Shown here in pieces: positions 3-26,857 of a DNA stretch of 30,669 bases (positions are counted from its first letter, which is position 1; each line of letters begins with the position of its first letter). Location: positions 1 to 30,669 of IMG/VR virus record IMGVR_UViG_3300009068_002081. One strand, 5' to 3'. Made by a program: the position numbers and the translations under genes. The DNA is from a virus. Under the pieces are notes generated by a model. It did not search any database, was not told the origin of the DNA, and was given only the letters and a program-made list of their open reading frames with translations.

Positions 3-356
3 TCAATGACCGATGCCTGGCTAAGTCAAATTGCCTATTGTATTGATGTGTGGGAACGAATTGAAATTGATGTTGTTCACGATCGAGCCGAATTAACCGG
101 CAACAACAAAGATGATAATTATAAACATAGAGAGCTACTAGAAGGCAATCCCAACAATCCTAGAGATTTCCATCATCCTCGCATGACACTAGATCGAATG
201 AAAGAATGTGATCAACTTTCTAAATACTTGAAAACCCAAGGAAACAATTCCGATTGGTGGGAACGTGTTAAAAATAGCAAACAAGATCCTTGGGAAAAAC
301 TCAAAGTAAACGACATCAATGGGCAAATGCGTCAGTTTCAATTGAAAGCACAATAA
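3..356 (+). CDS. Hypothetical protein, probably the C-terminal part of a gene cut by the window edge
   Basis: The reading frame is open from the first bases of the window, and the first ATG (position 6) has no visible ribosome binding site because the edge is only five bases away. I therefore read it as a probable fragment. The visible 116 residues are hydrophilic, rich in Asn, Asp, Lys and Trp, with no membrane segment and no motif I recognise. It ends two bases before the GTG start of the RmlB-like gene, so it probably belongs to the same transcript. Function unknown. Confidence 0.55.
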   Translation, partial: SMTDAWLSQIAYCIDVWERIEIDVVHDRAELTGNNKDDNYKHRELLEGNPNNPRDFHHPRMTLDRMKECDQLSKYLKTQGNNSDWWERVKNSKQDPWEKLKVNDINGQMRQFQLKAQ

Positions 357-358
357 CT

Positions 359-1309
359 GTGAAAAAAATTGTATATGTGACTGGGTGTCTGGGGTTTATA
401 GGAGTGCATGTCACCCGTCGGTGTTTGGAACAAGGCTGGTATGTGATTGGTGTGGACAAAGGCACCTATGCCAGTAATTTTGATTTCTTAGACGAGTTCC
501 AAAAATACAGCACATTTAAATTCATACACAAAGATATCAATGATCTTGACCGACTGTATGACTGCGATTATATCATAAACACAGCTGCCGAAACTCATGT
601 GGACAATTCAATCATGAGCTCAGATGTTTTTATTCGTAGCAACATCAACGGAGTACATCGCATACTAGAATTAATACAACAACAGCCTGTTCACCGGCAA
701 CCGACCTTGTTGCATTTTTCAACCGACGAGGTTTATGGAGACATTGATTCGGGTGCCCATACCGAAACTGACTTGTTAAAACCCAGTAATCCTTACTCGG
801 CATCCAAGGCAGCAGCTGACATGTTGGTCTTGGCCTGGTCTAGAACATTTGGCATCAAGTATGTGATTGTGCGGCCCACCAACAACTACGGTATTGGTCA
901 ATATGTTGAAAAACTCATACCCAAAAGCGTTAAATTTCTTGAACTGGGCAAATTGATTGATTTACACAATCACGGCAGTCCGGTACGAACCTGGTTGCAT
1001 GCCAAGGACACAGCCAATGCTGTAATATCCATTATTGATTCTGGATGTACCAACGAAATATTCAACATCAGTGGCAATATTGAATTGCCCAATTGCGAAG
1101 TAATTAAAAAAATACTACATCTATATTACAGAGTTGATCATGACAACAACTGGGAAACGTTTACTACACCCAGCAAAAGACAAGGGCAAGATGTTCGCTA
1201 TGCAATTGATGACAGCAAGTTAAAAAAATTAGGTTGGGTACCTGTAGCCGACTTTGACCAAGAACTGGCCAACGTGGTCGAATACTACAGGAATAATTTT
1301 GTATGGTAA
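359..1309 (+). CDS. rfbB: RmlB-like NDP-glucose 4,6-dehydratase (extended SDR)
   Basis: An extended short-chain dehydrogenase/reductase of about 316 aa. The Rossmann motif TGCLGFIG lies at residues 8-15, the NAD-binding Asp is at 33, AAETHVD is at 76-82, STDEVYG is at 121-127 (with the DE pair typical of 4,6-dehydratases), and the catalytic YSASK is at 146-150. The later PTNNYG and EKLIP segments are also typical of RmlB. The likely reaction is NDP-glucose to NDP-4-keto-6-deoxyglucose; dTDP or CDP cannot be decided from sequence. I chose the GTG at 359 because it places the Rossmann motif at the normal distance from the N-terminus and has GAAAG 10 bases upstream; the longer frame from TTG 290 only adds residues overlapping the preceding gene. 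It is about 40 residues shorter than typical RmlB. The next gene overlaps its stop (ATGGTAA). Confidence 0.88.
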   Translation: MKKIVYVTGCLGFIGVHVTRRCLEQGWYVIGVDKGTYASNFDFLDEFQKYSTFKFIHKDINDLDRLYDCDYIINTAAETHVDNSIMSSDVFIRSNINGVHRILELIQQQPVHRQPTLLHFSTDEVYGDIDSGAHTETDLLKPSNPYSASKAAADMLVLAWSRTFGIKYVIVRPTNNYGIGQYVEKLIPKSVKFLELGKLIDLHNHGSPVRTWLHAKDTANAVISIIDSGCTNEIFNISGNIELPNCEVIKKILHLYYRVDHDNNWETFTTPSKRQGQDVRYAIDDSKLKKLGWVPVADFDQELANVVEYYRNNFVW

Positions 1310-2028
1310 AGAACTATCTAGTATGTTCAGTTCGCCCCATATCCGAGAACTGGATGAATCAGGACAGCTCACAACTGCATTTGGACTATCAAGAAATGTA
1401 TCGTTTAAGATTGGCCAGCTTTAAACACTTTGTAAAAGAACCGTTTGAAGCTGTGACATGGACTGACCCTGCTACCAATAGCGATACCTGCACTTACCAA
1501 AATTGGTTGGATATTAAAGAACTGTGGCACAAGGAACCTTGTAACATATTCTGGGCCGGTGCCGACACACTTATGATTCAGCCTACAAACTTGTTTTCTG
1601 ACAGGTTCTCTCAATATCGATTGTTCAATTATACTGACCCAAGGAGTTATGGAGATTTTGCACACTATTTCAATGACGACATACAATATTATCCACATAC
1701 CATGTCAAGTGATGTGTGGAAATTAGGTGAAGAGTGGTTGACTCAAAGAGAAACACACCCAGATCGTAATTGGGGGTTTGATCAGTTAAGACACAATGCC
1801 ATGTTCTGGAGTCAAGATATTCCTGACTCTGACAGACTGCATCCAGAGATGGCCTATCAAGCAATGAATTTAAGAAGCATAAATCCAGATGTAATAGGTC
1901 AACACAACGGGTGGAATTCTTTGTCTATAGAGCAGGCTCATATACTACATTTTCATGGTAGCCGTGGCAGCCAGGCAGTAATAAACATCATGAAAGAAAT
2001 TTGCAATCAACTAGGTATTCAAACATGA
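1303..2028 (+). CDS. Putative glycosyltransferase-like protein
   Basis: 241 aa, soluble, no signal peptide. The one recognisable piece is the segment FWAGADTLMIQPT near residues 83-95, which resembles the AD-containing nucleotide-sugar site of GT-A glycosyltransferases that carry a D-A-D core; here the first Asp is replaced (WAGADT). The protein is rich in aromatic residues. The start overlaps the rfbB stop by seven bases and its own stop overlaps the next start (ATGA), so it is translated within the sugar operon. The glycosyltransferase role is an inference from one motif and from context. Confidence 0.5.
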   Translation: MVKNYLVCSVRPISENWMNQDSSQLHLDYQEMYRLRLASFKHFVKEPFEAVTWTDPATNSDTCTYQNWLDIKELWHKEPCNIFWAGADTLMIQPTNLFSDRFSQYRLFNYTDPRSYGDFAHYFNDDIQYYPHTMSSDVWKLGEEWLTQRETHPDRNWGFDQLRHNAMFWSQDIPDSDRLHPEMAYQAMNLRSINPDVIGQHNGWNSLSIEQAHILHFHGSRGSQAVINIMKEICNQLGIQT

Positions 2029-3344
2029 AACAAATATTAGAAGATATTAAAAAATACATCGATGCTAAACACGCAGACAAGACCTGGGTAGCTGGCAAAG
2101 ATTTTGTTAACTATGCTGGTCCGCATTTTACATCCGACGAGTATGTGGCAGCTGCCGAAGCACTACTAAATGGCTGGCTGGTAATGGGCAACAAGAGTCT
2201 ACGCTTTGAACAAAAGTTCCCCAAAGAATTTGGTAAGACTCGCGGAGTGCTAACAAACTCAGGCAGTAGTGCCAACCTGCTGATGATGGCCGCAATGAAA
2301 AGCAAGCGTGGCCATAACTTTCCATCGGGTACTAAAGTATTGATGCCCATTGCAGGCTTTCCAACCACACTTAATCCAACCTTACAAAATGGATTTACGC
2401 CAGTGTTCTGCGATATTGAAATTGATACCTTGAACATTGATCTAGATCAAGCAGAACAGATACTTGCCGCCGATCCAGACATTAAGATTATAACCTTTGC
2501 ACATGTGTTGGGTAACCCGCCCAATATGGATCGTGTGATGGAATTAGTTAATCGACACAATTTAATTTTGTTAGAAGATTGTTGTGACGGATTGGGTACT
2601 ACCTATGATGGAAAGCCACTAGGTAGTTTTGGTGAGATGGCAAGTTGCAGTTTTTATCCGGCGCATCATATGACCATGGGCGAAGGCGGATTTGTAGCAA
2701 TGAACGATCCACAGCAAGAAATCATTGTGCGTAGTCTACGTGAATGGGGCCGTGGATGTTATTGCGTAGGGCCCGAGGCCAACAAGTTAAAATGTGGCAC
2801 ATGCGGCAAGCGATTTAATGAGTGGATTCCAGAGATGCCAGATCAGATATTTGATCACAAATATGTCTACGACGAGATTGGATATAATCTAAAGCCAATT
2901 GAATTACAAGCCGCAATGGGTCTAGAGCAAATTAAGAAATTGCCAGAGATTCACACTTTACGTCAGCGCAACTACAATCTGTTGTTTGCTATCTATGAAA
3001 AGTACGAAGAGTTCTTCCACTTGCCACGTGCTCGTTACAAAGCAGATGTAAGCTGGTTTGCATTTCCGTTAACAATTCGCGAAGGTGCTCCGTTTACACG
3101 CATGGACATTGTTGACTACTTGGAAGAAAATCTAATTCAAACTCGTCCGTACTTTGCCGGTAACATCATGTTACAACCTGCATATTCACACTTGATGAAT
3201 CCTGCAACAGCACGTGATGACTTTCCTGTTGCTACATTTACAATGAAGAACACCTACTTCCATGGATGCAGTCCGGTTATTACTCCAGAGCAGATTTCCT
3301 ACATTGGAGAGAAAGTTGACGGATTTATGAGTTTATACCTATGA
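2025..3344 (+). CDS. rfbH: RfbH/E1-type NDP-4-keto-6-deoxyglucose 3-dehydrase
   Basis: DegT/DnrJ/EryC1-fold protein of 439 aa. The segment SFYPAHHMTMGEGG puts His214 where aminotransferases carry the PLP lysine, the hallmark of PMP-dependent E1 dehydrases. The iron-sulfur cysteines are present: Cys187 (in LEDCCDG), Cys245 and Cys247 (GRGCYCVG) and Cys260 (GTCGKRF), matching the E1 pattern except for an insertion of about five residues carrying an extra Cys257. The family removes the C3 hydroxyl of CDP-4-keto-6-deoxyglucose to make 3,6-dideoxy sugars, together with a reductase (E3) not seen here. ATG 2025 overlaps the previous stop as ATGA; an upstream TTG at 2001 is less likely. The substrate is inferred from the family. 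Confidence 0.9.
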   Translation: MKQILEDIKKYIDAKHADKTWVAGKDFVNYAGPHFTSDEYVAAAEALLNGWLVMGNKSLRFEQKFPKEFGKTRGVLTNSGSSANLLMMAAMKSKRGHNFPSGTKVLMPIAGFPTTLNPTLQNGFTPVFCDIEIDTLNIDLDQAEQILAADPDIKIITFAHVLGNPPNMDRVMELVNRHNLILLEDCCDGLGTTYDGKPLGSFGEMASCSFYPAHHMTMGEGGFVAMNDPQQEIIVRSLREWGRGCYCVGPEANKLKCGTCGKRFNEWIPEMPDQIFDHKYVYDEIGYNLKPIELQAAMGLEQIKKLPEIHTLRQRNYNLLFAIYEKYEEFFHLPRARYKADVSWFAFPLTIREGAPFTRMDIVDYLEENLIQTRPYFAGNIMLQPAYSHLMNPATARDDFPVATFTMKNTYFHGCSPVITPEQISYIGEKVDGFMSLYL

Positions 3345-4507
3345 AAGGGTTAAGCCAGGTAACGTCTAATATCGACGGACAGCCAATGTTCAAGTATCTA
3401 GACATGGCCAGGGAGTTAGAAGCCAAAGGTCAACATCTTATCCACATGGAGATAGGTGAGCCAGACTTTGACACCCCTAAGAATGTTACCTGGGCAGCCG
3501 TTCAATCTTTATCCAACGGAGAAACACACTACGGTAGTAGTTTTGGTCTACAAGAATTTAGAGAGGCTGTGCAGTTTGCTACAGAACGCAGTAGAGGATT
3601 CCGTCCTGACTTAGATCAAGTACTTATTACTCCAGGTGCCAATATTGCTATCTACTATGCTGTGTTCTGTTTAGTTGATCCAGGCTTTGAAGTTATTGTT
3701 CCAGATCCTGGGTTCAGCACATATTACAGCAACATCAAAATGTGTGGTGCTGTGCCTGTGCGTGTGCCACTGAAAGAAGAAAACGAATTCCGTATGAGCC
3801 CAGACGACATCGAAGCCGCTATTACAGATAAGACACGACTGATTATTATTAACAGTCCGCAAAATCCCACAGGCAGTGTGCTTACCACTGATGAAGTTAA
3901 ACGCATTTATGAAATTGCCAAGAAGCATGACATATACATTTACAGTGATGAGATTTATGCACGTATGAACTATGAGCCAATTGGTTTTGCAAGTCCAAGC
4001 ATTTATGATCACTGTAAGGAACATGTTATCCTTAGCAATGGGTTTAGTAAAGCATTTGCTATGACAGGATGGAGATTAGGAACATTGATTGGACCTGCCA
4101 ATGTCATCGAACGCATGGCGGCACTACTACAAACTACATCAAGTTGTGTCAGTACGTTTGTCCAACGTGCTGGAATTGAAGCTATTCGCGGCAGTCAAGA
4201 AACAGTTACAAATATGATGGCCGAATATCGGGCACGTAGAGACCTGCTGGTCGACGGGTTAAATCGTGTCAACGGCGTTCGCTGTCTCAAGCCAGGTGGC
4301 GCATTTTACGTATTTCCTAATATCACAGGAACAGGACTATCGAGTGACCAAGTTGTTGAAAAGTTAATGGCTGCTGGAGTAGTGACCTTGCCCGGACATT
4401 GTTTCGGAGAACACGGTGAGGACTATATTAGATTGTGTTATGCCACTAGTCGTAAAAACATTCAAGAAGGTCTGAATAGAATTTATAAAGCATTGGGAAC
4501 AAAATGA
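3341..4507 (+). CDS. Class I/II PLP-dependent aminotransferase
   Basis: 388 aa, full length for the aspartate-aminotransferase fold type I family. Visible marks are IGEPDFDTP near residue 38, the NSPQNPTG motif near 170, YSDEIYARM near 200, the PLP lysine Lys237 in SNGFSKAFAMTGWRLG, and a substrate-carboxylate-binding Arg near the C-terminus (YIRLCYAT). Sugar aminotransferases normally belong to the DegT fold, so this enzyme more likely acts on an amino acid or oxo acid. In this operon it could supply the 2-oxo acid donor for the thiamine-diphosphate enzyme encoded directly downstream (inference). ATGA overlaps join it to both neighbours. Confidence 0.9.
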   Translation: MKGLSQVTSNIDGQPMFKYLDMARELEAKGQHLIHMEIGEPDFDTPKNVTWAAVQSLSNGETHYGSSFGLQEFREAVQFATERSRGFRPDLDQVLITPGANIAIYYAVFCLVDPGFEVIVPDPGFSTYYSNIKMCGAVPVRVPLKEENEFRMSPDDIEAAITDKTRLIIINSPQNPTGSVLTTDEVKRIYEIAKKHDIYIYSDEIYARMNYEPIGFASPSIYDHCKEHVILSNGFSKAFAMTGWRLGTLIGPANVIERMAALLQTTSSCVSTFVQRAGIEAIRGSQETVTNMMAEYRARRDLLVDGLNRVNGVRCLKPGGAFYVFPNITGTGLSSDQVVEKLMAAGVVTLPGHCFGEHGEDYIRLCYATSRKNIQEGLNRIYKALGTK

Positions 4508-5511
4508 GAGTATGTGATTGGATCGCTGATTATCTAAAATCAATTGGAGTTGAACGTGTACACGGATTAATGGGCGGTGGCGCAAGTGGACTTAATGATG
4601 GATTCATCAAACAAGGTATGCCCTATATCTGTTATCATCACGAGCAAGGTGCAGGACATTCTGCAATTGGCGAAAGCAAGTTCACTGGCAAAATTGCAGT
4701 AGTTAATCCCACAACAGGTTGTGCAGGTACTAACTGTGCAACATCAGTTTTAAATGCATGGCAAGACAGTGTACCTGTTTTGTTCTTGTCAGGCAATGTT
4801 AGACTACCAACTTGTAGCGGACACATTAACAAAAAGAACAACATCAACATTCGTAAGTATGGTATTCAAGAACACCATGTTGTTGACACCTACAAGTCAA
4901 TGACCAAATTAAGTTGTTTTGTTGACAATGTACAAGACGTAGCATACACAATTCAATATGCAGTACACTTGGCAACAACTGGTCGTCCTGGGCCTGTATG
5001 GATTGATATTCCAGGAGATATTCAAACAGCACAGATGCCCGAGAACTATAAAGAGTATACCGCTACCAAGTTAGTCGAGACGTTATCAAGCTATGATCGT
5101 GTCAAACAAGCAATTGCCCGAGCAAAACGTCCTATTGTGTTAGCGGGTTACGGCATTCGTCAAAGCAACACAGTCGACGACTTTGTTAATTTTATTGAGC
5201 ATTACCAGATTCCTTATGTCAGTACCTACGGAGCAAGAGATTACACAGCCGATGATCACAAATTAAGCATTGGTGCTGTGGGTATCAAAGGAAGTCGTGC
5301 AGGCAACTTTGCTATGCAGAACGCAGACTTGTTGCTTATCTTGGGTAGCAGTCTTGGATCAAGTGTAATTGGATACGATCCTGCACAGTTTAGTCCTGCG
5401 AGTTATAAAATTATTATAGACTTAGATGTTGACGAATTGAAAAAAGATATTGTTAAAATTGATGAAAAGTATCATGTCAATTTAGAAAACTTCTTTAGGA
5501 GCATGGTATGA
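4504..5511 (+). CDS. Acetolactate-synthase-like ThDP enzyme, N-terminal half (PYR and central domains)
   Basis: 335 aa. The N-terminal pyrimidine-binding (PYR) domain includes the catalytic Glu47 in YHHEQGAGHSA, which activates the cofactor, and the GCAGTNCATSV loop. A central dihydrooxoacid-type domain follows from about residue 190 (RAKRPIVLAGYGIR, then LLLILGSSLGSSV). The ThDP-binding PP domain is missing here and is encoded by the next gene. The two products together are 580 aa, the normal length of a fused acetolactate synthase. In sugar operons such enzymes, for example YerE of yersiniose biosynthesis, attach a two-carbon branch from pyruvate to a 4-keto-6-deoxy sugar. Context (RmlB-like plus RfbH) fits this, but the actual reaction is inferred. 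Confidence 0.88.
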   Translation: MRVCDWIADYLKSIGVERVHGLMGGGASGLNDGFIKQGMPYICYHHEQGAGHSAIGESKFTGKIAVVNPTTGCAGTNCATSVLNAWQDSVPVLFLSGNVRLPTCSGHINKKNNINIRKYGIQEHHVVDTYKSMTKLSCFVDNVQDVAYTIQYAVHLATTGRPGPVWIDIPGDIQTAQMPENYKEYTATKLVETLSSYDRVKQAIARAKRPIVLAGYGIRQSNTVDDFVNFIEHYQIPYVSTYGARDYTADDHKLSIGAVGIKGSRAGNFAMQNADLLLILGSSLGSSVIGYDPAQFSPASYKIIIDLDVDELKKDIVKIDEKYHVNLENFFRSMV

Positions 5512-6245
5512 ACCAACAATGGATAGACAAATGCAATTACTGGAAAGCTATCTGGCCTGTAATGCAAGACGAATATTGTGCTAACAACAATGATTACTCA
5601 CTAAACATATATGCTGTGCTGGATGCTATTAACAAACATAGTCGTCCCGAAGACATCTTAATGGGCGATGCTGGTAGTATTAGCTACGCAGGACCTGTTG
5701 CTCTAAATGCCAAGCCAGGTCAACGTTTTATTTTTAGTCCAGCACAGGCAGATATGGGATGGGCATTGCCTGCGGCTATTGGTGTTGCTATGGCCAGTAA
5801 TCAACCTATCATCAGTATCATAGGTGATGGTAGTTTTATGAGCAATATCCAAGAACTTGCTACAGTCAAGCAACATGAACTGAATATTAAATTTGTTATA
5901 CTCAACAATGCAGGTTATTTGAGTATCAAAAACACACAGACCAAGTACTTTCAAGGTCGTGTACACGGTACCAGTTCAGAAACCGGGTTATGGTTTCCTA
6001 ACTTTATGAACATTGCTTCTGCATTTGGCATGGCCTATGCTGATATGCGATTAGCTTCAGACCTAGACAAGTTTCCAGAGATACTTGCTAAACCAGGTCC
6101 TTGTATTATTGACTGCCGTTGCCATGGTGATCAAGAAATTCTTCCAGCGCAGGCATTAAAGGATGGAAAACAAGCAGGCCTACACGACATGACTCCGTTC
6201 CTTAGCGATGAAGAACTTGCTGGTGAAATGATTATTAAAATTTAA
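5508..6245 (+). CDS. Acetolactate-synthase-like ThDP enzyme, C-terminal half (PP domain)
   Basis: 245 aa. This is the pyrophosphate-binding domain of a ThDP-dependent decarboxylase or carboligase: the metal and ThDP motif starts with GDG at residues 106-108 and ends with NN at 133-134. The segment QADMGWALPAAIGVA at 80-94 is typical of this domain. It has its own Shine-Dalgarno AGGAG at 5497-5501, six bases before the ATG, which itself overlaps the preceding stop. The split falls at the boundary between the central and PP domains and lies in a different frame (offset of two), so this looks like a functional gene fission, not decay. The two products should form a complex. Confidence 0.88.
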   Translation: MNQQWIDKCNYWKAIWPVMQDEYCANNNDYSLNIYAVLDAINKHSRPEDILMGDAGSISYAGPVALNAKPGQRFIFSPAQADMGWALPAAIGVAMASNQPIISIIGDGSFMSNIQELATVKQHELNIKFVILNNAGYLSIKNTQTKYFQGRVHGTSSETGLWFPNFMNIASAFGMAYADMRLASDLDKFPEILAKPGPCIIDCRCHGDQEILPAQALKDGKQAGLHDMTPFLSDEELAGEMIIKI

Positions 6246-6250
6246 ACACC

Positions 6251-6934
6251 ATGACAGACAATATTCACAAAACAATTCCAGGTCTAGAAAACTTAGTTGA
6301 ATTAAGAGATAATTCAGAGTTTCTAGAATTAAAAAATCTGTGGTGGCCTCAATACGATCAGGGCATGTGGAATTACATGCATAGACACCGCATAGAACCA
6401 GAATTTTTTGATTTGCTAATGACCCATGTTGATGCTACCAATATCATGGTACAGGCCGGTGGTAACTGTGGACAGTATGTAAAGCAGTTTAGTCAACGAT
6501 TTGATACTGTGTATACATTTGAACCAGATCCATTGAATTTTTTGTGCTTGACTTTAAACTGTGGTAATAACGTGATTAAAACGCAGGCCTGTCTGGGCAA
6601 CGATAACAAATTTGTAAGTATCGATAGAACAAGTGATGCTGGAGCCATTCATGTTACTGGACAAGGTAATGTACCTACTATGCGTATTGATGACATGCAT
6701 TTACCAAGTTGCGATCTTATACAGTTAGACATTGAAGGCTATGAACTATTTGCGTTGCAAGGAGCTCAACGTACCATTGAACAATATCATCCTGTAATCA
6801 TGATAGAATGGTACGAGCCGTGGGCTGAACGATATGGAACCAATCAAAAAATACGCGACGAGTTTTTTAACAATATAGGATACAAAAAAGTGCTAGTCAA
6901 AGATAACGATATAATCTATAAGCGCCTAAAATGA
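6251..6934 (+). CDS. FkbM-family SAM-dependent methyltransferase
   Basis: 227 aa. The SAM-binding glycine-rich segment VQAGGNCGQY is at about 67-76, the acidic EPDP that contacts the adenosine is at 91-94, and the diagnostic FkbM motif LDIEGYE is at 159-165, followed by MIEWYEPW. The family mostly O-methylates sugars and polyketides, so methylation of the sugar or glycan made by this operon is likely. It begins five bases after the ThDP gene stop, with no strong ribosome binding site, and ends in an ATGA overlap with the next gene. The exact acceptor cannot be told from sequence. Confidence 0.87.
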   Translation: MTDNIHKTIPGLENLVELRDNSEFLELKNLWWPQYDQGMWNYMHRHRIEPEFFDLLMTHVDATNIMVQAGGNCGQYVKQFSQRFDTVYTFEPDPLNFLCLTLNCGNNVIKTQACLGNDNKFVSIDRTSDAGAIHVTGQGNVPTMRIDDMHLPSCDLIQLDIEGYELFALQGAQRTIEQYHPVIMIEWYEPWAERYGTNQKIRDEFFNNIGYKKVLVKDNDIIYKRLK

Positions 6935-7869
6935 AAACAGCACTAATTACCGGAGCCAATGGATTTATTGGTCACTACTTAGTAGAAGAATTTTTAAAAG
7001 ATCACCATGTGATCTGCGTAGTACGACCAGGTTCGGTTAATATGGAACGAATCGATCACGTGCTTGATCGTGTTACTATAATTGAACACGACATTAAAAA
7101 TTCTTGTAGGCGCTTGCCAACAGCAGATATTATATTACATGCTGGTGCCAATCCTAGTTCAGCTGACAGCTTGAGTGATCCTACAGCATCCGTCATGGAC
7201 AATGTGCTGGGTACATTAAACTTGTTGGAACATGCCCGTCATACTGGAGTTGAAAGATTTGTATATTATAGTAGTGCTGAAGTATTTGGTCCTATATCTA
7301 TTGGTCAAGACAGTCAAGCAACCGACGCCTACAACAGCAATAGTCCTTATGCAGCCGGCAAAGCCGCTGGAGAAGAACTGTGCCTGGCCTATGCTAACTC
7401 GTTCAATGTTCCTGTGAGCATTATACACATCAACAACACCTTTGGTCTACGTTGCCAAAGCAATCGCTTGCCTGTGATCATTGTACGCAAATTACTCAAC
7501 AATGAAACCCTAGATATACATGTAGGACCCAGTGAGTTAATTGGTGGTCGTCGTTGGTTCTATGCCGGCGATGTGGCCAGTCATACTCGATTTATATTAG
7601 AAACACAATCCGCCCGTTGTGAAAAATGGAACAGTGCTGGATCAAGATTTATCGATAATCTTGAATTTGCTCAAACTATTGCTCGTTTAATGAATTGTGA
7701 ATTGTTATACAAATTGGTTCCTGTTGATCGTCCTGGGCATGACTTATGTTTTAGCGTCGATCCTGGAAAATTATATAAACTAGGGTGGCGAGCACCAAAA
7801 ACGTTCGAAGAACGTTTAACTGAAACAGTTGATTGGTATCAAAATAACCCTGAATGGCTCGCACGATAG
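6931..7869 (+). CDS. NAD-dependent epimerase/dehydratase (extended SDR)
   Basis: 312 aa. The Rossmann motif TGANGFIG is at 7-14, HAGANPSSADS is at 70-80, YSSAEVFG is at 113-120, the catalytic pair YAAGK is at 140-144, and the C-terminal substrate domain ends in GWRAPKTFEERLTETVDWY, a typical sugar-nucleotide epimerase tail. It could act as the C4 or branch ketoreductase (YerF-like role) or as an epimerase; sequence alone does not decide. It is the last gene of the sugar operon: its stop is directly followed by a new promoter at 7870. No terminator is visible between the two units. Confidence 0.87.
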   Translation: MKTALITGANGFIGHYLVEEFLKDHHVICVVRPGSVNMERIDHVLDRVTIIEHDIKNSCRRLPTADIILHAGANPSSADSLSDPTASVMDNVLGTLNLLEHARHTGVERFVYYSSAEVFGPISIGQDSQATDAYNSNSPYAAGKAAGEELCLAYANSFNVPVSIIHINNTFGLRCQSNRLPVIIVRKLLNNETLDIHVGPSELIGGRRWFYAGDVASHTRFILETQSARCEKWNSAGSRFIDNLEFAQTIARLMNCELLYKLVPVDRPGHDLCFSVDPGKLYKLGWRAPKTFEERLTETVDWYQNNPEWLAR

Positions 7870-7899
7870 TTGACAAACTGTGGTGAATTGTTGTACAAT
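7870..7899 (+). promoter_or_regulatory. Sigma-70 type promoter placed for a leaderless mRNA
   Basis: TTGACA (7870-7875), an 18-base spacer and TACAAT (7894-7899). The ATG of the phosphoribosyltransferase starts six bases after the -10 box, so transcription would begin at or next to the start codon. No Shine-Dalgarno is seen. Confidence 0.75.
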
Positions 7900-7904
7900 A
7901 GCAT

Positions 7905-8471
7905 ATGAAGAAAATCTATTATACCTGGCGAGATGTTGAGCGTCAAACACAAGAAATCATACGTCAAATACAGTTAGATGACTGGCGTCCTGACTATGTG
8001 GTAGGACTTACCCGTGGCGGGTTGGTTCCTGGTAATCTTATTAGCCAATACTTAGAAGTTCCAATGGAATGTCTTAAAGTAAGTCTACGTGATGATCATT
8101 CTGAACCCGAAAGCAACTTGTGGATGGCCACAGATGCTTATGGATACGAGTCAGCTGATAAAGATCCTAATGTGTGGATTGAAACATATCCAGGAGGCAA
8201 TAGTATCACTGGTCGCAAAAATATTCTTATTGTAGATGATATTAACGATTCGGGTGCTACATTGAATTATATTAAACAAGACTGGCAATCAAGTTGTTTT
8301 CCTAATGATCCTGTGTGGAATGATATTTGGAGTAACAATGTTCGTGTTGCTACTTTAGTAGATAATGAATCTAGTGCTAGTGAATTAAGTGTTAGTTATA
8401 GTGCCATCGGCCTAAATAAAGCTGAAGAAGATTGTTGGATTGTGTTCCCTTGGGAAGATTGGTGGAAATGA
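7905..8471 (+). CDS. Phosphoribosyltransferase (type I PRTase fold)
   Basis: 188 aa. The PRPP-binding motif NILIVDDINDSGAT is at 106-119, and the early VVGLTRGGLVPGN segment at 32-44 matches the pyrophosphate loop of xanthine/hypoxanthine phosphoribosyltransferases (Gpt-like). A longer, Trp-rich insert of about 40 residues separates the two motifs. The nucleobase is not clear. The gene starts almost at the predicted transcription start and leads an operon that also encodes QueE and NadE, which suggests nucleotide or cofactor metabolism. The next gene overlaps its stop as ATGA. Confidence 0.85.
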   Translation: MKKIYYTWRDVERQTQEIIRQIQLDDWRPDYVVGLTRGGLVPGNLISQYLEVPMECLKVSLRDDHSEPESNLWMATDAYGYESADKDPNVWIETYPGGNSITGRKNILIVDDINDSGATLNYIKQDWQSSCFPNDPVWNDIWSNNVRVATLVDNESSASELSVSYSAIGLNKAEEDCWIVFPWEDWWK

Positions 8472-9534: not shown

Positions 9535-9767
9535 TGGGTGCCGGTTACTATTCTCCTGGTGTAGATGCGTACGATCATTTTTATCATAAAGCGTTTTGGC
9601 GACTAAAGTTTTTATGGTGGCCTAAACGTAGTGACATATCCGGACGTTGGTTATGGTTACGTCAAGTTTACGAAGGTACAGCAATGTATCATGGACCAGG
9701 CGAGGCTGTGTTTGAATTTAGATATCACGAGATCAAAGAACATTTAATATGGAAATTAAAACAATGA
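9531..9767 (+). CDS. Small aromatic-rich hypothetical protein
   Basis: 78 aa starting at ATG 9531 (or the adjacent ATG 9534), overlapping the queE stop. Rich in Trp, Tyr and His. It ends with a pattern (VFEFRYHEIKEHLIWKLKQ) that resembles the C-terminal ends of three small proteins at 29473-30181, so it probably belongs to a paralogous small-protein family of this genome. Function unknown. Confidence 0.68.
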   Translation: MMGAGYYSPGVDAYDHFYHKAFWRLKFLWWPKRSDISGRWLWLRQVYEGTAMYHGPGEAVFEFRYHEIKEHLIWKLKQ

Positions 9768-10513
9768 CACCATTACAAGATCGTATCACAGCATGGATCA
9801 AGGACTATGCTCAACAGGCCAATATGAAATCATTGGTAGTAGGTATCAGCGGCGGAATTGATAGTGCTGTGGTCAGTGCCTTATGTGCTCGCACTGGCAT
9901 GAATACGGTTGCTGTAACAATGCCCATCCGTCAACGTCCAGACCTGCATGACCTAAGTATGCGTCAAGGTGCTTGGTTGGCCGAACGCTTTGATAATGTA
10001 CGTCATGAAATTATCGACTTAACTACAACCTTTGATGAGTTTGAAGGTCGACTAGCTACCTATCCAAACTTACTAGGTTTAGCTAATAGTCGCAGTCGAC
10101 TACGCATGGTTACCTTGTATCAAATTGCTCAAACAGTTGGTGGTCTGGTGGTAGGTACTGGCAATAAAGTAGAAGATTTTGGTGTGGGATTTTATACCAA
10201 ATATGGCGACGGTGGTGTGGACATCAGTCCTATTGCTGACTGTTACAAAACAGAAGTATGGCAAATGGGCCGTGAGCTGGGTGTACTGGATGATATTATC
10301 AATGCGGCACCCACAGATGGACTATGGGATGATGGACGCACCGACGAAGATCAACTGGGATTAACTTATGCTGATTTAGAGTTAGCAATGAGTCAAGACG
10401 AAGGTGTAGTACTAGTAAAAAGTGCTTTAGAATTAGAACGTTTAGAAAAATATCAAGAAATACGTGCTCGCAGTCTGCACAAAATGAATCCTATTCCAGT
10501 ATTTAAAAAATAA
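9764..10513 (+). CDS. nadE: NH3-dependent NAD+ synthetase
   Basis: 249 aa, close to the short ammonia-dependent NadE class; no glutaminase domain. The adenylating PP-loop is VGISGGIDSAVVS, with SGGIDS at 29-34, and the NadE signature GTGNKVEDFGVGFYTKYGDGG follows at 131-151. The TDGLWDDGRTDEDQLG segment near 200 also fits the family. It converts nicotinate adenine dinucleotide to NAD+. ATG 9764 forms an ATGA overlap with the preceding stop; an in-frame ATG at 9749 is less likely. Phage NAD+ synthesis may support replication or counter NAD+-depleting host defences (inference). Confidence 0.92.
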   Translation: MTPLQDRITAWIKDYAQQANMKSLVVGISGGIDSAVVSALCARTGMNTVAVTMPIRQRPDLHDLSMRQGAWLAERFDNVRHEIIDLTTTFDEFEGRLATYPNLLGLANSRSRLRMVTLYQIAQTVGGLVVGTGNKVEDFGVGFYTKYGDGGVDISPIADCYKTEVWQMGRELGVLDDIINAAPTDGLWDDGRTDEDQLGLTYADLELAMSQDEGVVLVKSALELERLEKYQEIRARSLHKMNPIPVFKK

Positions 10514-15479: not shown

Positions 15480-15848
15480 GTGCGTGACAAAAAGAAACTT
15501 ACTGAAACATTAGTTGCTCAGTTAGATCCAGAGCTTGGTATCACGGTTGAGCATGCATGTAATACCTGGTGGTACAACTTACGAAGCACTGGTGGCATGC
15601 GACTTACTGCGAGTGGGTTAGATGCCTTTTGTAATTTGTTAAAACTTGAACACTATGATTATCGCATAGATCCATTCGATCTTAATTCAAAGTTAATCAT
15701 TGCCATGGATCGTAGACTACAACAACCTTATTATATTGTAACCAAAAAGAAGATACCAATTCAAATTATATTTTTTGGTAGTAAAGAGGCAATGATGGCC
15801 AATTTATACGGCGATATTAAAAAATTCATTGACAACTATCGAACATAG
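15480..15848 (+). CDS. Hypothetical protein with a GTG start
   Basis: 122 aa. I take GTG 15480 as start because it lies directly after the previous stop, while the upstream ATG at 15384 would force a 95-base overlap with another gene. GGTGAGCAGG upstream may serve as ribosome binding site. The C-terminal part is hydrophobic-basic (YYIVTKKKIPIQIIFFG at about 83-99) but not a clear membrane helix. Function unknown. Confidence 0.62.
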   Translation: MRDKKKLTETLVAQLDPELGITVEHACNTWWYNLRSTGGMRLTASGLDAFCNLLKLEHYDYRIDPFDLNSKLIIAMDRRLQQPYYIVTKKKIPIQIIFFGSKEAMMANLYGDIKKFIDNYRT

Positions 15849-15857
15849 TGCTATACT
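15829..15857 (+). promoter_or_regulatory. Sigma-70 type promoter
   Basis: TTGACA (15829-15834), exactly 17 bases, TATACT (15852-15857), inside the end of the preceding gene. The ATG at 15869 follows 11 bases after the -10, leaving at most a five-base leader. The TAAATAC within it also looks late-promoter-like. It may also drive the tmRNA. Confidence 0.75.
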
Positions 15858-15868
15858 AAATACTCAAT

Positions 15869-16039
15869 ATGGAACAGAACAAAAAACCCGTTGATAAGTT
15901 TTACTACTCTGAACAAGAGTGGGATCGATTAGGATGCGGTCCGTTACCAGAAGAGCGTGATCGTGCTAAACAACATTTAGACGCTTGTGCAAAAGGTAAT
16001 CCTAAGATTGACGGTAAGAACGTAAAAGGTTATAACTAA
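15869..16039 (+). CDS. Small hypothetical protein
   Basis: 56 aa, hydrophilic, Lys/Asp/Asn-rich with two cysteines. It sits directly behind a near-consensus promoter and begins almost at the transcription start. The frame is free of stops and the codon use resembles neighbouring genes. Function unknown. Confidence 0.65.
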   Translation: MEQNKKPVDKFYYSEQEWDRLGCGPLPEERDRAKQHLDACAKGNPKIDGKNVKGYN

Positions 16040-16067
16040 CTTAGTTTTGCATTTTAGAAAAAAATGC

Positions 16068-16412
16068 ATGGTGGGTCGGACTGTTAGAATCGTAGTAGTA
16101 AAGAATTGTTGTAATTCCTTTGTAGTGAAGGCACTGTGGACCCGGGGGCGGAGCCCGGCATCTCCACCGGAGGGTATTTGTTAAAGTATTCTGCGTTGGG
16201 GATGAATTAGTTTCGACATGGTGAGATAGCGAAAGAGGCAACACGGTAGGCGATGACCGTTAATCAAGCAAAACTCGTAAATGCCAAAGCATCTACAGGC
16301 GAAGTAACTGTTTCTGGTAAGAACGTTAAGTTCTCTGCTCGTACAGCGAAAGCCGAATCTTTCGCAGTTTAATCACCGCGATAGGGTAGGATATACCTCG
16401 TAACAGAAACAA
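16068..16412 (+). ncRNA. ssrA: Circularly permuted two-piece tmRNA
   Basis: The acceptor half lies before the coding half. The acceptor piece ends with a T-arm (CCGGG 16142-16146 / CCCGG 16154-16158, loop GGCGGAG) and CATCTCC (16159-16165), then ACC. The coding piece begins at 16198 with GGGGATG, which pairs perfectly (one G-U) with CATCTCC, followed by the conserved tmRNA segment TTTCGACA. CATGGTG (16217-16223) pairs with CACTGTG (16132-16138), forming helix P2, extended by GCGAA/TTTGT. A pseudoknot-type stem ACGGT/ACCGT follows. The 29 bases between the pieces would be cut out. CCA is not encoded in full (ACCG). Two-piece tmRNAs are known in alpha- and betaproteobacteria and some cyanobacteria. 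It rescues stalled ribosomes. The 5' end is approximate. Confidence 0.85.
16277..16372 (+). other. Proteolysis-tag reading frame of the tmRNA
   Basis: Aligning the CTC just upstream with the usual context of the resume codon gives GTA (16277) as resume codon and a 31-residue tag that begins VNAKASTGEV and ends AKAESFAV before TAA. It is far longer than the usual ten or so residues and ends in Ala-Val, not Ala-Ala. The exact resume codon is uncertain. Confidence 0.55.
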
Positions 16413-16416
16413 CCAG

Positions 16417-16441
16417 AACCCGCTTCGGCGGGTTTCTTTTT
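16417..16441 (+). terminator. Intrinsic terminator of the tmRNA
   Basis: Perfect seven-base-pair stem AACCCGC / GCGGGTT with a TTCG tetraloop, followed by TCTTTTT. Confidence 0.93.
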
Positions 16442-16507
16442 ATGCATAGTTAACTTCTAAAAGTACCAAGAAACCTTGCATTTTTTGCATGCCATTAGTG
16501 TAAACCA

Positions 16508-16561: not shown

Positions 16562-17293
16562 ATGAAAAAATTATTATTAGCATTATTCGCAATGGCTAGC
16601 ATTACCGCGGCTCACGCTCAGGTATCTGGCAATTTAGGTTTGACAAGTGACTACCGTTTCCGCGGCATCAGTCAATCCCAAAATGCTCCTGCTGTCCAAG
16701 GCGGTGTTGACTATGCCCACAGCAGTGGTTTTTACGTTGGTAACTGGAATAGTAGTGTAAGTTCACAAGTTTACACAAATGGTTCTGGTGTAGAGAGTGA
16801 TCTCTATGCAGGATACAAGAAGGACATCTACAAAGGTATTACTATTGATATCGGTACATACAACTACTTCTATCCACGTGCTACTACTTCAGCCAAGACA
16901 GGTTCTAACTATGATACATACGAAGGTTTTGTTGGTGTAAGCTACAAAGACCTAGTGGGTGCCAAGTACAGTCGTACATTGGGTGCTGGTTACTTCGGTA
17001 CTGCTAATGCACAAGGTACAACTTATACACAAGCTGATGCCAAGTTGCCAGTTCCTGCAATCAAGAACTTGAGCGTAGTGGCCCACGCTGGCCGTACCAA
17101 TGTTGCTAATAACGCCACATTAGACTACAGTGATTACAATGCTGGCATTGCTTATGCATTGCCACAAGGTTGGGAAGGTACCGTCAAGTACTATACCAAT
17201 ACAAGCACTGGCACTTTTGAATCCGCTAACACTGTTAACGGTCAGAAACTTTACAGAAACGCTACTGTGTTTACTGTAGCCAAATCATTCTAA
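16562..17293 (+). CDS. Outer-membrane beta-barrel protein, Gcw_chp/TorF-like
   Basis: 243 aa. A classical signal peptide (MKKLLLALFAMASITAAHA, cleavage after residue 19) leads into VSGNLGLTSDYRFRGISQS, the typical start of the Gcw_chp family of proteobacterial outer-membrane proteins. The mature part alternates polar and aromatic residues with repeated Gly/Tyr/Ser segments and ends with a terminal Phe (VAKSF), the usual signal for barrel insertion. It is an independent transcription unit: terminator before, TAAATA motif plus Shine-Dalgarno at the start, strong terminator behind. A barrel in a phage might alter the host surface or block re-infection (inference). Confidence 0.85.
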   Translation: MKKLLLALFAMASITAAHAQVSGNLGLTSDYRFRGISQSQNAPAVQGGVDYAHSSGFYVGNWNSSVSSQVYTNGSGVESDLYAGYKKDIYKGITIDIGTYNYFYPRATTSAKTGSNYDTYEGFVGVSYKDLVGAKYSRTLGAGYFGTANAQGTTYTQADAKLPVPAIKNLSVVAHAGRTNVANNATLDYSDYNAGIAYALPQGWEGTVKYYTNTSTGTFESANTVNGQKLYRNATVFTVAKSF

Positions 17294-17354: not shown

Positions 17355-18830
17355 ATGTGTGGAATCCTTTTAGTTAAAAGTAAAAATACAATAACGATAG
17401 AACAGCACCTAAATGCTTTTTTAAAATTACGTAGCCGTGGACCGGACTTCTGTAGATACCAGTACGAGAATAATATATTTGTTGCACAATCAGTGCTACA
17501 CATTACAGGGTCGGCAGACTACTATCATCAAGAACACCCAAACTTTTTAGCCTACAATGGTGAAATATATAATTTTAAAAAGTTTGGTGCATATAGTAAT
17601 GATATAGAATTTGTGGATGAATGTATCAACAATGATATTTCTAAGTTAGCTGACGGATGGGGTCCGTGGGCATTCGCTTGGACAGACAAACATACTGTGC
17701 TGTATGCTAGCGATCCACAAGGTGAAAAAACTTTATATCAATATCAAGACAACAATATATTAGTTGTGTGTAGTGAGATTGCTCCTATACTTGATTATGT
17801 CAATACACAAAAAGTCTACAACGAATACATTAGTAGACATTGGGCTTTGGTAGATCAAACTCCATATTTAGGTATTACTAGAGTTGTTGCTGGTCAATTA
17901 TATCAAGACGGACACGTTATAAAAAATATTGATAACATATGGGCTTGGATTAAACCCGCAGAATATAAAGATATTAATGAAGCCTATGAAGAGTTTGCCA
18001 ACAAATGGGCTCATGTTACTGAATTAATGACCCCTGCATGTCCAGCGGCTTTAACCTACTCTGGTGGACTTGACAGCAGTATCATACTCAGTCATATAGA
18101 CAATCTTGAATTATACACTACTAACATGCTAGGTAAGGATCCTATTGTGGATCACGTTAATGATTTTCTAACCGATAACGAGTGGCTAAGATTACACAAT
18201 ATCTCAGTTAACAAACAACAATGGGCACAGGCATTTACGGATGTTCTTGCTCGCTCTCAACTGCCTGTACAAAGTTGGAGTTTTGTTGGACAATGGATTG
18301 TTAGTGAACAATGCAAGGAACGAGTATTGTTTACTGGTGTTGGGGCGGATGAGTTATTTGGTGGTTACGACGTTTATCAAAGACTAACCTATACAACGGG
18401 CCAATCGTCTAGCCCGTATAGTCGTGGATGCAGTGCTCTCTTGTGGCAACGTTGTTTGTCTGCGTACGACCAACATGCTGGGCAGGCCACATTATTGGCT
18501 GATTATCTATATCAAATTGCCGGCTGTGATAGCCGAGGTATTGATGTGATTGCTGGATCCTGGGGTATAGAAGCAAGGAATCCGTTTTTGGCTAAACCCG
18601 TTATGCAATTAGCATTAAGTTTACCATTTGAATATAAAGTAGGCACAATCCCCAAACCCTTAATAAGACGTTTGTTTTTAGAACGATGGGCAGAAAAAGA
18701 TATCTTGCCTAAAAAAGGATTTACTGGACATTGTAACGACAGCTTACCGTGGTTAGATGTTGAAATAGAAACAACCAACGATAGAGATCAAGACTGGAAA
18801 CAAATTGTGATCAAGAGTTTTTATAACTAG
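17355..18830 (+). CDS. asnB: Glutamine-hydrolysing asparagine synthase-like amidotransferase
   Basis: 491 aa, two domains. The N-terminal class II glutaminase has the nucleophile Cys2 (MCGI), RSRGPD at 26-31 and YNGEIYN at 67-73. The C-terminal synthetase has the PP-loop TYSGGLDSS (234-242), GVGADELFGGY near 325 and the family's substrate region. It is shorter than bacterial AsnB (about 550 aa). It transfers ammonia from glutamine to a carboxylate activated with ATP; the acceptor could be aspartate or a sugar uronic acid, as in WbpS/WbtH-like O-antigen enzymes. No Shine-Dalgarno is seen before ATG 17355. Its 3' end overlaps the opposing gene by 20 bases. Confidence 0.88.
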   Translation: MCGILLVKSKNTITIEQHLNAFLKLRSRGPDFCRYQYENNIFVAQSVLHITGSADYYHQEHPNFLAYNGEIYNFKKFGAYSNDIEFVDECINNDISKLADGWGPWAFAWTDKHTVLYASDPQGEKTLYQYQDNNILVVCSEIAPILDYVNTQKVYNEYISRHWALVDQTPYLGITRVVAGQLYQDGHVIKNIDNIWAWIKPAEYKDINEAYEEFANKWAHVTELMTPACPAALTYSGGLDSSIILSHIDNLELYTTNMLGKDPIVDHVNDFLTDNEWLRLHNISVNKQQWAQAFTDVLARSQLPVQSWSFVGQWIVSEQCKERVLFTGVGADELFGGYDVYQRLTYTTGQSSSPYSRGCSALLWQRCLSAYDQHAGQATLLADYLYQIAGCDSRGIDVIAGSWGIEARNPFLAKPVMQLALSLPFEYKVGTIPKPLIRRLFLERWAEKDILPKKGFTGHCNDSLPWLDVEIETTNDRDQDWKQIVIKSFYN

Positions 18831-24039: not shown

Positions 24040-25626
24040 ATGGCAAATGTAATTTTATTCACAGCTAATGCTCCTCGACAGGTTGTTTATAAAACTCATG
24101 TGTTGCAAATAGAAAACGTTGTATATCCGGCCGGAGCTTTTGCCATTGCCAGTCATCTAAGAAATTTAGGATATTCAGTGTTGGTGATTCCTCACTGTTT
24201 AAGATTAAGTTTAAGCGGTGTTAAGAAAATTATAGAAAATAATAAAAAAGAACTATTGTGGGTAGGTATAAGCACAACCTTGATGTCAATACAAAGCAGT
24301 TCAACCGATTCTTATCGTAACTTGTGGCATACAACTCAAGAAGAAATTTTAGATATTAATCTATTGTTTAATGATGATTTAAACAAGCTAAACAAATCTC
24401 TAGAACCAGCATGGGGCACCAATGAAGTCAATGCTATCGCTAAAGAATTACAATTAAAAAATACACCACTAATGATTGGTGGTGCATGGGTCACGTCAAT
24501 TACCAACGGAAATTATTCCAACCTTGAAAAAAATATTCATTTAGTAACTGGCAACGCTGAAAAACAGTGCGAAGAACTTAGTCGCACATTAAGTCAAGGC
24601 ATGTCTGAATCCCTTCCGTTATTTGTAAGCAACGAGGATTACGACAATGGGCATTTTCGTCAAAGCAAATATGCATGGACTGACAATGATCTAGTAGACG
24701 AAGATGATTGGGTCCCAATAGAAATTTCACGTGGATGTGCATTCAATTGTGCATACTGTAGTTATGATCGTAAATCTACGTTTGATTCTTACAAAGATCC
24801 AGTGGTAATTAGAGAACAGTTAATTGAATTGTATGAAAAATACGGTGTAACTAAATTCTTGCTAGTGGACGATCTATACAACGACTCTAAAAAGAAAGTT
24901 CGCATTATGTACGATCAGGTTTGGAGCAAGTTACCGTTCACCCCAGAATGGACCAGTTATCTTAGACTAGATATGTTTTACAGCGACCCGGAGAGCATAC
25001 AAATAATAAAAGATAGTGGGTGCCGCATAGGGTCGTTTGGTATTGAAACCATGAACGATCGTGCAGGTAGCAAAGTTGGCAAGGGATTAGGCCGAGCTCG
25101 TATTATTAGCACACTAGAAAATCTTAAACGCATATGGGGTGATGACGTATTGGTGGCTGGTATGTTTATTATGGGATTACCGGGCGAATCAGTAGAAAGT
25201 ATGATGGAAACAGCCGAGTGGTTAAAAACTACTGATTTATTATACAGTTACAGTGCCACTCCATTATGGATTACTCCACCAGAACACAAAAAATTCATAC
25301 TTAAACATACCCCAATTGTTGACGACTACAACAAGTATGGTATCACCTGGACCAAAAATGAAGGATGGAAAAACGAGTGTGGAGTAACCTATAAGATAGC
25401 GGACGAAATTGCCAAGTCCTGCGTTACTAATTCTAACATGTTTGCTGTAAGTTTTTCAAACTATCCAGAGTTTAGAACTATGGGGTTTTCACATGAAGAC
25501 TTTAAATTACTTAAACGAGATCCAGATAGTATAATAGAAAAATTAAAGCTGGGGTGCAAACAACTCAATGAGTGGAATATTAAAAGAACTCAAAATTTTT
25601 TAAGCATTGCAGATTGTACAAGTTAA
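24040..25626 (+). CDS. B12-binding-type radical SAM protein
   Basis: 528 aa. The N-terminal part (about 1-200) looks like a cobalamin-binding-type Rossmann domain (PAGAFAIASHLRNLGYSVLVIP at 30-51, then LMIGGAWVTS), without the DxHxxG motif needed for base-off B12. The radical SAM core follows with EISRGCAFNCAYC, the cluster cysteines being 233, 237 and 240, then FLLVDDLYN, GSFGIETMND and MFIMGLPGES, typical of the MiaB/B12-type radical SAM class. The reaction cannot be named. No Shine-Dalgarno. Phage copies of this class are often linked to surface or peptide modification, but nothing here proves it. Confidence 0.85.
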   Translation: MANVILFTANAPRQVVYKTHVLQIENVVYPAGAFAIASHLRNLGYSVLVIPHCLRLSLSGVKKIIENNKKELLWVGISTTLMSIQSSSTDSYRNLWHTTQEEILDINLLFNDDLNKLNKSLEPAWGTNEVNAIAKELQLKNTPLMIGGAWVTSITNGNYSNLEKNIHLVTGNAEKQCEELSRTLSQGMSESLPLFVSNEDYDNGHFRQSKYAWTDNDLVDEDDWVPIEISRGCAFNCAYCSYDRKSTFDSYKDPVVIREQLIELYEKYGVTKFLLVDDLYNDSKKKVRIMYDQVWSKLPFTPEWTSYLRLDMFYSDPESIQIIKDSGCRIGSFGIETMNDRAGSKVGKGLGRARIISTLENLKRIWGDDVLVAGMFIMGLPGESVESMMETAEWLKTTDLLYSYSATPLWITPPEHKKFILKHTPIVDDYNKYGITWTKNEGWKNECGVTYKIADEIAKSCVTNSNMFAVSFSNYPEFRTMGFSHEDFKLLKRDPDSIIEKLKLGCKQLNEWNIKRTQNFLSIADCTS

Positions 25627-25900: not shown

Positions 25901-26857
25901 ATGAATTACTTTATAAAAATTCTCATGGCATCAGTGTTGGTATTTGAAGCGATATCAGCTGGTGCGTCTACACAACAACCAATTGAAATTGTAATACCAA
26001 CCGCACCTGGTGGCACCACCGATTTAATTGGTAGATTTGTAGCAAAAACGTTATCTGATGCTGGTATTCCGACAGTGTCTGTAAACAAACCTGGCGCTCA
26101 AATGATTGTAGCCGGAAAATATGTTACTAGCCTTAAAGGTAAAGAAAAAAACAACACCTTATTAATGCTAACCGCAGGGGGATCGTTGGCTTCGTGGTTA
26201 CCGGACCCTACCCCTTATGATATTTTTAAAGATCTAGATCCAATTACATTGTTGGCCAAGGATAGTATTGTGGTTGTGGTTCCAGCTGAAAGCAAGTTTA
26301 AAAATATAACAGAGTTGGTTCGTGAATTACAAGCTCGCCCAGGGGAGCTGTCTTATGCAACTGGATCAATGAGTCATATCATTGCCGCTAATATTTTTTT
26401 AGAAGCAGTCAAGGCCACTGGCATTAATATTGCGTATCAAGGTCAAACGCCTGCTAATGTGGCTCTAGGAGGAAATCAAGTTGACTTTGCAGTGGTAAGT
26501 TATGCTGACAGTAAAGAACTTGCTATCGCTGGACGTTTTCGAATTATTGGAATTTCAGCCAATCAAAGAATAAACGACGGATTAAATGTGTCTACCTTAA
26601 AAGAACAGGGTATTAATGTGCCAGAACTTAACGTATGGTATGCGTTAATGGCACCAGCTGGAATGGATCCAGCACTAATTAAAAGAATCAACGAATTGGT
26701 TGTTCCTGCTATTGAAAGAGAAAAACAAACCCATGCACGACTTAAGCTATTAAATGCCAATGGTAGCACTCCGGCAGAACTTACAAGGTTTATAAAGTCA
26801 TACTATAGTGTATGGAATCCATATTTAGAAAACTTCCGTAAAAACGAGTCTAAATAA
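25901..26857 (+). CDS. Bug/TctC-family periplasmic solute-binding protein
   Basis: 318 aa. A signal peptide (MNYFIKILMASVLVFEAISAGA, cleavage near 22-23) leads into IEIVIPTAPGGTTDLIGRFVA, the classical start of Bug (Bordetella uptake gene) receptors of tripartite tricarboxylate transporters. LSYATGSMSHIIAANIF and GQTPANVALGGNQVDFAVVS, in the middle third, are also family features. Members bind carboxylates, amino acids or cofactors in the periplasm and are expanded in Burkholderiales. No transporter membrane subunit is nearby, so it would have to feed a host transporter or act as a binding protein. It has its own promoter. The next gene starts immediately after its stop. Confidence 0.88.
   Translation: MNYFIKILMASVLVFEAISAGASTQQPIEIVIPTAPGGTTDLIGRFVAKTLSDAGIPTVSVNKPGAQMIVAGKYVTSLKGKEKNNTLLMLTAGGSLASWLPDPTPYDIFKDLDPITLLAKDSIVVVVPAESKFKNITELVRELQARPGELSYATGSMSHIIAANIFLEAVKATGINIAYQGQTPANVALGGNQVDFAVVSYADSKELAIAGRFRIIGISANQRINDGLNVSTLKEQGINVPELNVWYALMAPAGMDPALIKRINELVVPAIEREKQTHARLKLLNANGSTPAELTRFIKSYYSVWNPYLENFRKNESK

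Follow-up and report, generated by a model that had tools for sequence, protein, structure and literature searches.

A 30,669-base IMG/VR virus record with eight tRNAs, hereafter the window, encodes a permuted tmRNA whose 29-residue tag is common to 82 other IMG/VR contigs and ends in Ala-Val. The gene form, the conservation of the tag, the covariation in its RNA, and the mosaicism of the locus are observed. On these grounds, we consider it fairly probable that this jumbo-phage tmRNA would carry out trans-translation with host factors and add a weaker degron, with the long-tag module being a recombining allele.

The permuted tmRNA gene and its surroundings

The cmscan search matched RF04321 (tmRNA_permuted) at window positions 16107-16372 (123.3 bits, cut-off 47, E 6e-24) and RF01850 (beta_tmRNA) at 16057-16320 (117 bits, cut-off 84, E 3e-35). 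ARAGORN, which is independent of cmscan, called a permuted tmRNA (tmRNA*) with a 29-residue tag at 16077-16463. The agreement between the Rfam models and ARAGORN far exceeds chance. The initial annotation had proposed a phage-encoded permuted tmRNA, to be checked by a covariance search with the beta_tmRNA and alpha_tmRNA models, and the proposal is borne out by the RF04321 and RF01850 scores, by the ARAGORN call, and by the phage genes around the locus. As it had also stated, the acceptor half is encoded 5' of the coding half; the gene is therefore permuted. The acceptor stem (GGGGATG with CATCTCC) and P2 (CATGGTG with CACTGTG, two wobbles) are both present as it had named them, and only its term "perfect" is a little generous, because both stems contain G-U wobbles.

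The acceptor stem includes the G3-U70 alanine identity pair (16200 with 16163), which is kept in 92 of 92 parsed relatives. CCA is only partly encoded, as ACC followed by G (16166-16169), and a tag frame with a resume codon and a stop is present (Table 1). Exactly one tmRNA was found per phage record in 23 of 23 records. A single-strand fold of the precursor fails to recover P2, and a two-piece mature RNA is predicted from the gene form.

Table 1. Features of the tmRNA locus, in window coordinates
Feature	Position	Strand	Evidence or remark
Promoter-like site TTGACA-17-TATACT	15829-15857	+	11/12 consensus matches plus TG extension; consensus only; upstream of the 56-codon ORF and the tmRNA
56-codon ORF just upstream of tmRNA	15869-16039	+	Several relatives have a similar ORF ahead of their tmRNA
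Acceptor half	16107-16168	+	Rfam alignment, sequence, D/T-loop parsing; ends with ACC
P2 3' strand	16132-16138	+	Within acceptor half
T-arm	16142-16158	+	T-loop GGCGGAG at 16147-16153
Acceptor 3' strand	16159-16165	+	Followed by ACC
Intervening segment, expected to be removed	16169-16197	+	Hairpin extending the acceptor stem; fold of 16100-16441, z -2.5
Coding half start	16198-16240	+	Acceptor 5' strand 16198-16204; D-loop AATTAGTTTCGAC 16205-16217; P2 5' strand 16217-16223
PK1 region and UAAAU element ahead of resume codon	16241-16282	+	RF04321 and RF01850 alignments; module types
Tag reading frame, 29 codons and UAA, AKASTGEVTVSGKNVKFSARTAKAESFAV	16283-16372	+	ARAGORN; 82 relatives
Hairpin within tag reading frame	16316-16339	+	45 relatives: 99.3% of cells paired, two-sided change at one pair
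Hairpin with stop codon in loop	16363-16380	+	Codon 27 third base covaries with 3' partner
3' hairpin (16384-16388 with 16394-16398) and candidate pseudoknot, loop with tail to 16414	16384-16414	+	Covariation
Intrinsic terminator GAACCCGCTTCGGCGGGTTTCTTTTT	16416-16441	+	Sequence

A small hairpin, gcattttagaaaaaaatgc, followed by ATGGTGGGTCGGAC, lies at 16049-16067 and is possibly the 5' end of the precursor; this leader is also present in L042, L059, L079, and L084. The upstream 56-codon ORF has no Pfam or PHROG match. It ends with DGKNVKGYN, and the GKNVK motif recurs in the tag core, which is probably a coincidence. The idea that the C-terminus of this ORF gave rise to the tag core was considered and set aside as a weak lead: the codons do not track at most loci, and short-tag phages share the ORF ending. 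The segment between the two halves ranges from about 30 to more than 100 nt among relatives. Some of L003, L004, L026, L034, and L076 have apparently structured inserts common to their intervening segments, and Rfam scans of L003 and L034 returned nothing beyond tmRNA and tRNA matches.

The phage genes in the window comprise those for a 5'-3' exonuclease, a MazG-like protein, an AAA ATPase, and a virion protein. No near relative of the window was found in the cultured-phage collection; the exonuclease and the ATPase share about 51% identity with their counterparts in Pseudomonas jumbo phage PA5oct and its relatives. Among 23 other records (up to 344 kb) in which the exonuclease was sought, 17 carry it at 83-96% identity; the six without it comprise three short-tag phages and three long-tag records that may be fragments. 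A gene for a Gcw_chp protein (16562-17293) lies directly downstream of the tmRNA, in a region that is matched in relatives too; together with a TctC-type solute-binding protein (25901-26857), it constitutes unusual phage cargo. A cluster at 335-7869 encodes a nucleotide-sugar epimerase, two aminotransferases, and a thiamine-pyrophosphate enzyme split across two ORFs (4504-5511 and 5508-6245), and the regions 9749-10513, 17355-18830, and 24040-25626 encode proteins of the NAD synthase, asparagine synthase-like, and radical SAM types.

Distribution and conservation of the long tag

A scan for the exact P2/D core returned 31 viral contigs, in which ARAGORN read either ordinary short tags (ANASNDEVFALAA, ANDEMFALAA, and others) or the long tag. 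With two degenerate DNA patterns, a total of 82 contigs besides the window were found to carry the long tag in full. The resulting set, including the window, comprises 83 contigs (46 distinct peptides and 56 distinct nucleotide sequences), which is not a tally of independent phages because contigs from separate assemblies may be the same phage. Most carriers for which this could be tested belong to a single clade of jumbo phages, with records of up to 344 kb.

The tag frame is intact in all 83 contigs, with a length of 29 residues in 75 and 28 residues in 8. The terminal Ala-Val is invariant (LAV in 56, FAV in 27), and the C-terminal Ala-Ala of the ssrA degron is missing from every long tag. 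By contrast, all 31 bacterial control tags read by ARAGORN end in -AA; most of these have 10 to 15 residues and the longest has 25. Therefore, length alone is not unheard of, and it is the conserved sequence and the -AV ending that are unusual. The long tag also has no ANDE-type start. Sister phages that carry a short-tag allele at this locus also have tags with an -AA ending. Short and long tags start alike (ANASNDEV, ANASTGEV), and the sequences suggest that the long tag arose through a structured segment inserted into a short tag. In a different phage (L029), the tmRNA at 7801-8233 has a 24-residue tag, AKANTFKYMQVDVALNDDAFALAA, with a long-tag-like start and an ALAA end.

No true case of the long tag was found with two DNA patterns in 84,980 species genomes, and 18 relaxed-pattern matches in bacterial genomes were all due to chance. 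A tblastn search with the 29-residue query, run without a positive control, gave no match among 50,697 records of phages and 72,556 of plasmids. The tag has no Pfam match. Its PDB matches (repeat proteins) were discarded as sums of sub-threshold repeats, in which no single stretch passes. A full-text literature search, covering the main texts of a collection with few subscription journals, returned no paper containing the tag core.

The two patterns select for conserved codons, and conservation was therefore measured on codons 9-29 in the upstream-pattern set. There, dN/dS was 0.56 overall and 0.45 without the RTL variants; without these variants, in the set not selected on these codons, it was about 0.24 in codons 9-19 and 0.70 in codons 20-29. 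Synonymous sites are also conserved, many of them without any variation, so that much of the constraint could act on the RNA and not on the peptide; both kinds of constraint are visible in the sequences and are inseparable with the present data.

RNA structure and mosaicism of the locus

Forty-five distinct sequences were aligned from the tag start to the 3' tail and tested against a named structure; the alignment was built on sequence and was not fitted to the structure. The cells of the structure were paired in 92.5% of cases versus 86.7% in shuffles, a percentage that is favored because the structure was derived from folds of the same sequences. Two-sided changes affected 8 pairs and 69 cells, against means of 3.9 and 21.6 in shuffles that keep relatedness uncorrected, and sliding the partners lowered pairing to 23-52%. 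Among the individual elements, (i) the hairpin within the tag is nearly invariant; (ii) in the stop-codon hairpin, the third base of codon 27 and its downstream partner form A-U in 24, C-G in 17, and U-A in 2 sequences, and the codon encodes Phe (UUC, UUU) or Leu (UUA) according to this 3' partner; (iii) the 3' hairpin is 100% paired, with two-sided changes in 3 of 5 pairs; and (iv) the candidate pseudoknot is paired in 68% of cells, can form in about half of the sequences, and does not form in the loop type of the window past the first pair or pairs. RNAalifold returned the same three hairpins and suggested that tag codons 9-10 pair with the 3' tail in a closing helix.

A less probable reading of this structure is that the long tag is first of all an RNA element: the inserted codons would build the helices of the coding half, in the service of stability, processing, or ribosome passage, and the peptide would be of little consequence. 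The conserved hairpin in the reading frame, the Phe/Leu switch of codon 27 along with its partner, and the many synonymous positions that never vary point this way, but a frame kept in 83 of 83 contigs, a dN/dS that is still about 0.24 in codons 9-19, and the invariant terminal Ala-Val argue for a peptide that matters.

The long-tag genes are mosaic. Simple motif classes divide them into at least five types of acceptor half, four of PK1, and four of tag end, which occur in 21 combinations. These three modules are shuffled among relatives, as is the 3' pseudoknot. In sister phages L004, L005, L007, L013, L017, L020, L023, and L024, genes matching those that flank the window tmRNA surround a tmRNA with a short tag. 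Compared with the window, G048 is 84% identical in the flanks and only about 57% identical in the 85 nt before the tag, whereas G014 is 72% identical in the flanks and 92% identical in those 85 nt; this discordance is direct evidence for module replacement.

T-loop position 55 and the D-loop co-vary, with 61 U55/GG and 31 G55/AG genes (six ACAAGGTTTCGAC D-loops, read by eye as GG, are counted among the 61). A new interaction (G18 with U55 versus A18 with G55) was considered and rejected, since alphaproteobacterial tmRNAs normally show the second state; the covariation marks mosaicism, because A18/G55 is the alphaproteobacterial norm. The window combines its T-loop with an AG D-loop, which is the alphaproteobacterial combination: a GGC T-loop with an AG D-loop occurs in 29 of 29 parsed alphaproteobacterial control tmRNAs. 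The beta_tmRNA consensus combines the T-loop UUCGAUU with a GG D-loop, a combination that the window does not have; this beta state rests on the Rfam consensus because the class sampled for betaproteobacterial controls held almost no beta_tmRNA. Given alphaproteobacterial controls with AG/G55 and a beta consensus with GG/U55, the window tmRNA, with a beta-like body and AG/G55, looks like an alpha/beta chimera and not a plain beta tmRNA. Thus, the origin from a betaproteobacterial host that the initial annotation had favored holds insofar as beta_tmRNA is the best type-specific model, and is opposed by the alphaproteobacterial type of the D- and T-loops, by the alpha-like or unclassified halves in sister phages, and by a tag unmatched in bacterial genomes. 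The alphaproteobacterial model RF01849 is matched by some sister phages at the same locus. Two genomes from the class of a gammaproteobacterium (L131 and L161) carry a permuted tmRNA above the beta cut-off, with alpha-type D- and T-loops and the tag ANDDNFEVALAA.

Proposed function and comparison with known systems

The tmRNA most likely rescues ribosomes with host SmpB, and its tag would, by analogy, be a weaker-than-usual degron. The precursor would be transcribed from the upstream promoter to the terminator, and host tRNA-processing enzymes would excise the 29-nt intervening hairpin, leaving two pieces that the pairing in P2 and in the acceptor stem keeps together. Completion of the ACC end would fall to the host CCA-adding enzyme, and host AlaRS would charge the RNA via G3-U70. 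No SmpB was found in 49 phage records, among which one may have been missed because many are fragments; the same search found SmpB in 10 of 14 named genomes. Host SmpB would have to serve, delivering the tmRNA to stalled ribosomes, where translation would resume at GCC (16283), add the 29 residues, and stop at UAA. The tagged products would be degraded more slowly than with the standard ssrA tag, because the tag ends in -FAV and not in -LAA. GFP is more stable with a tag variant that ends in AAV or ASV than with one that ends in LAA or LVA (PMC9097571, PMC5732988), and the phage degron should be weak by analogy, the tested AAV and ASV endings not being identical to LAV and FAV. The main benefit would be ribosomes freed during infection. 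Tag length would be set partly by the RNA, because tag codons form coding-half helices, and the long-tag module would be one allele circulating by recombination among these phages.

That the phage might tag proteins in its own way, as had been suggested at the outset, is consistent with the conserved, atypical tag. A stronger form of this idea, which we find rather unlikely, is that the jumbo-phage clade evolved its own 28-29-residue Ala-Val tag via structured RNA, so that rescue products would receive a non-host fate, and that the module is swapped with ordinary degron tags at one locus. It is improbable, in our estimate, that the tag is no degron at all and instead directs rescued proteins to another fate, or stabilizes them, within infected cells. 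Val instead of Ala at the terminus, the missing ANDE-type start, and the restriction of the tag largely to one phage clade are compatible with such a role, but tags ending in AAV or ASV still destabilize reporters, although less so (PMC5732988, PMC9097571).

Simple capture of a host two-piece tmRNA with a standard degron and an unchanged host role is already weakened and seems decidedly unlikely. The good fit of the beta_tmRNA model, the ordinary tags of sister phages at the same locus, and published phages with host-like permuted tmRNAs (PMC9004378) would agree with capture; the absence of the long tag from bacterial genomes (by pattern) and from phage and plasmid records (by tblastn), the -AV ending of all long tags versus -AA in all bacterial controls, and the pairing of alpha-type D- and T-loops with a beta-type body disagree with it. 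Competition with or inhibition of host trans-translation, for which the tag-less tmRNA of phage DS6A, as cited in PMC11915505, is a precedent, is very improbable for a gene whose tag frame is complete and conserved.

The preferred reading, a phage tmRNA that rescues ribosomes and adds a weaker degron, bears on the wider question of what purpose the known phage tmRNAs serve. A tag that is conserved, seemingly restricted to phages, and predicted to act as a weaker degron makes it possible to ask directly whether a phage needs ribosome rescue, proteolysis, or both. Sister phages with a short or a long tag at one locus constitute a natural experiment, and the shuffling of modules bears on how a two-piece RNA tolerates the swapping of parts that must pair.

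A permuted tmRNA in a phage is not new, because such genes have been published for Methylophilales phage Melnitz and other aquatic phages (PMC9004378). Of 133 distinct phage tmRNA genes, 53 are two-piece, and all but three of the 53 come from marine or aquatic samples (PMC9004378), and a 2025 database paper lists 79 phage tmRNAs (PMC11915505). The window shares with Melnitz a permuted tmRNA gene in a large aquatic phage, but the Melnitz tmRNA is SAR11-like and has a linked glutamine riboswitch. The long tag was not found in the cultured-phage collection searched. DS6A likewise encodes a tmRNA, which, as far as its citation in PMC11915505 describes it, is without a tag frame, whereas the window has a full, conserved tag. 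The alphaproteobacterial permuted tmRNA (RF01849) resembles the window in the T-loop GGC and D-loop AG, but the window body fits the beta model, and the bacterial tags read here end in -AA and are mostly short. The closest likeness in layout is to RF04321 and RF01850, whose gene order, acceptor stem, P2, T-arm, PK1 region, and resume site are all recognizable in the window at scores that pass both cut-offs; the window differs from them in its 29-residue -FAV tag, the helices in the tag frame, and the alpha-type D/T-loop pair. In the literature searched, the combination of a conserved long tag, structured coding, an -AV ending, and a recombining locus is a variant that we did not find described.
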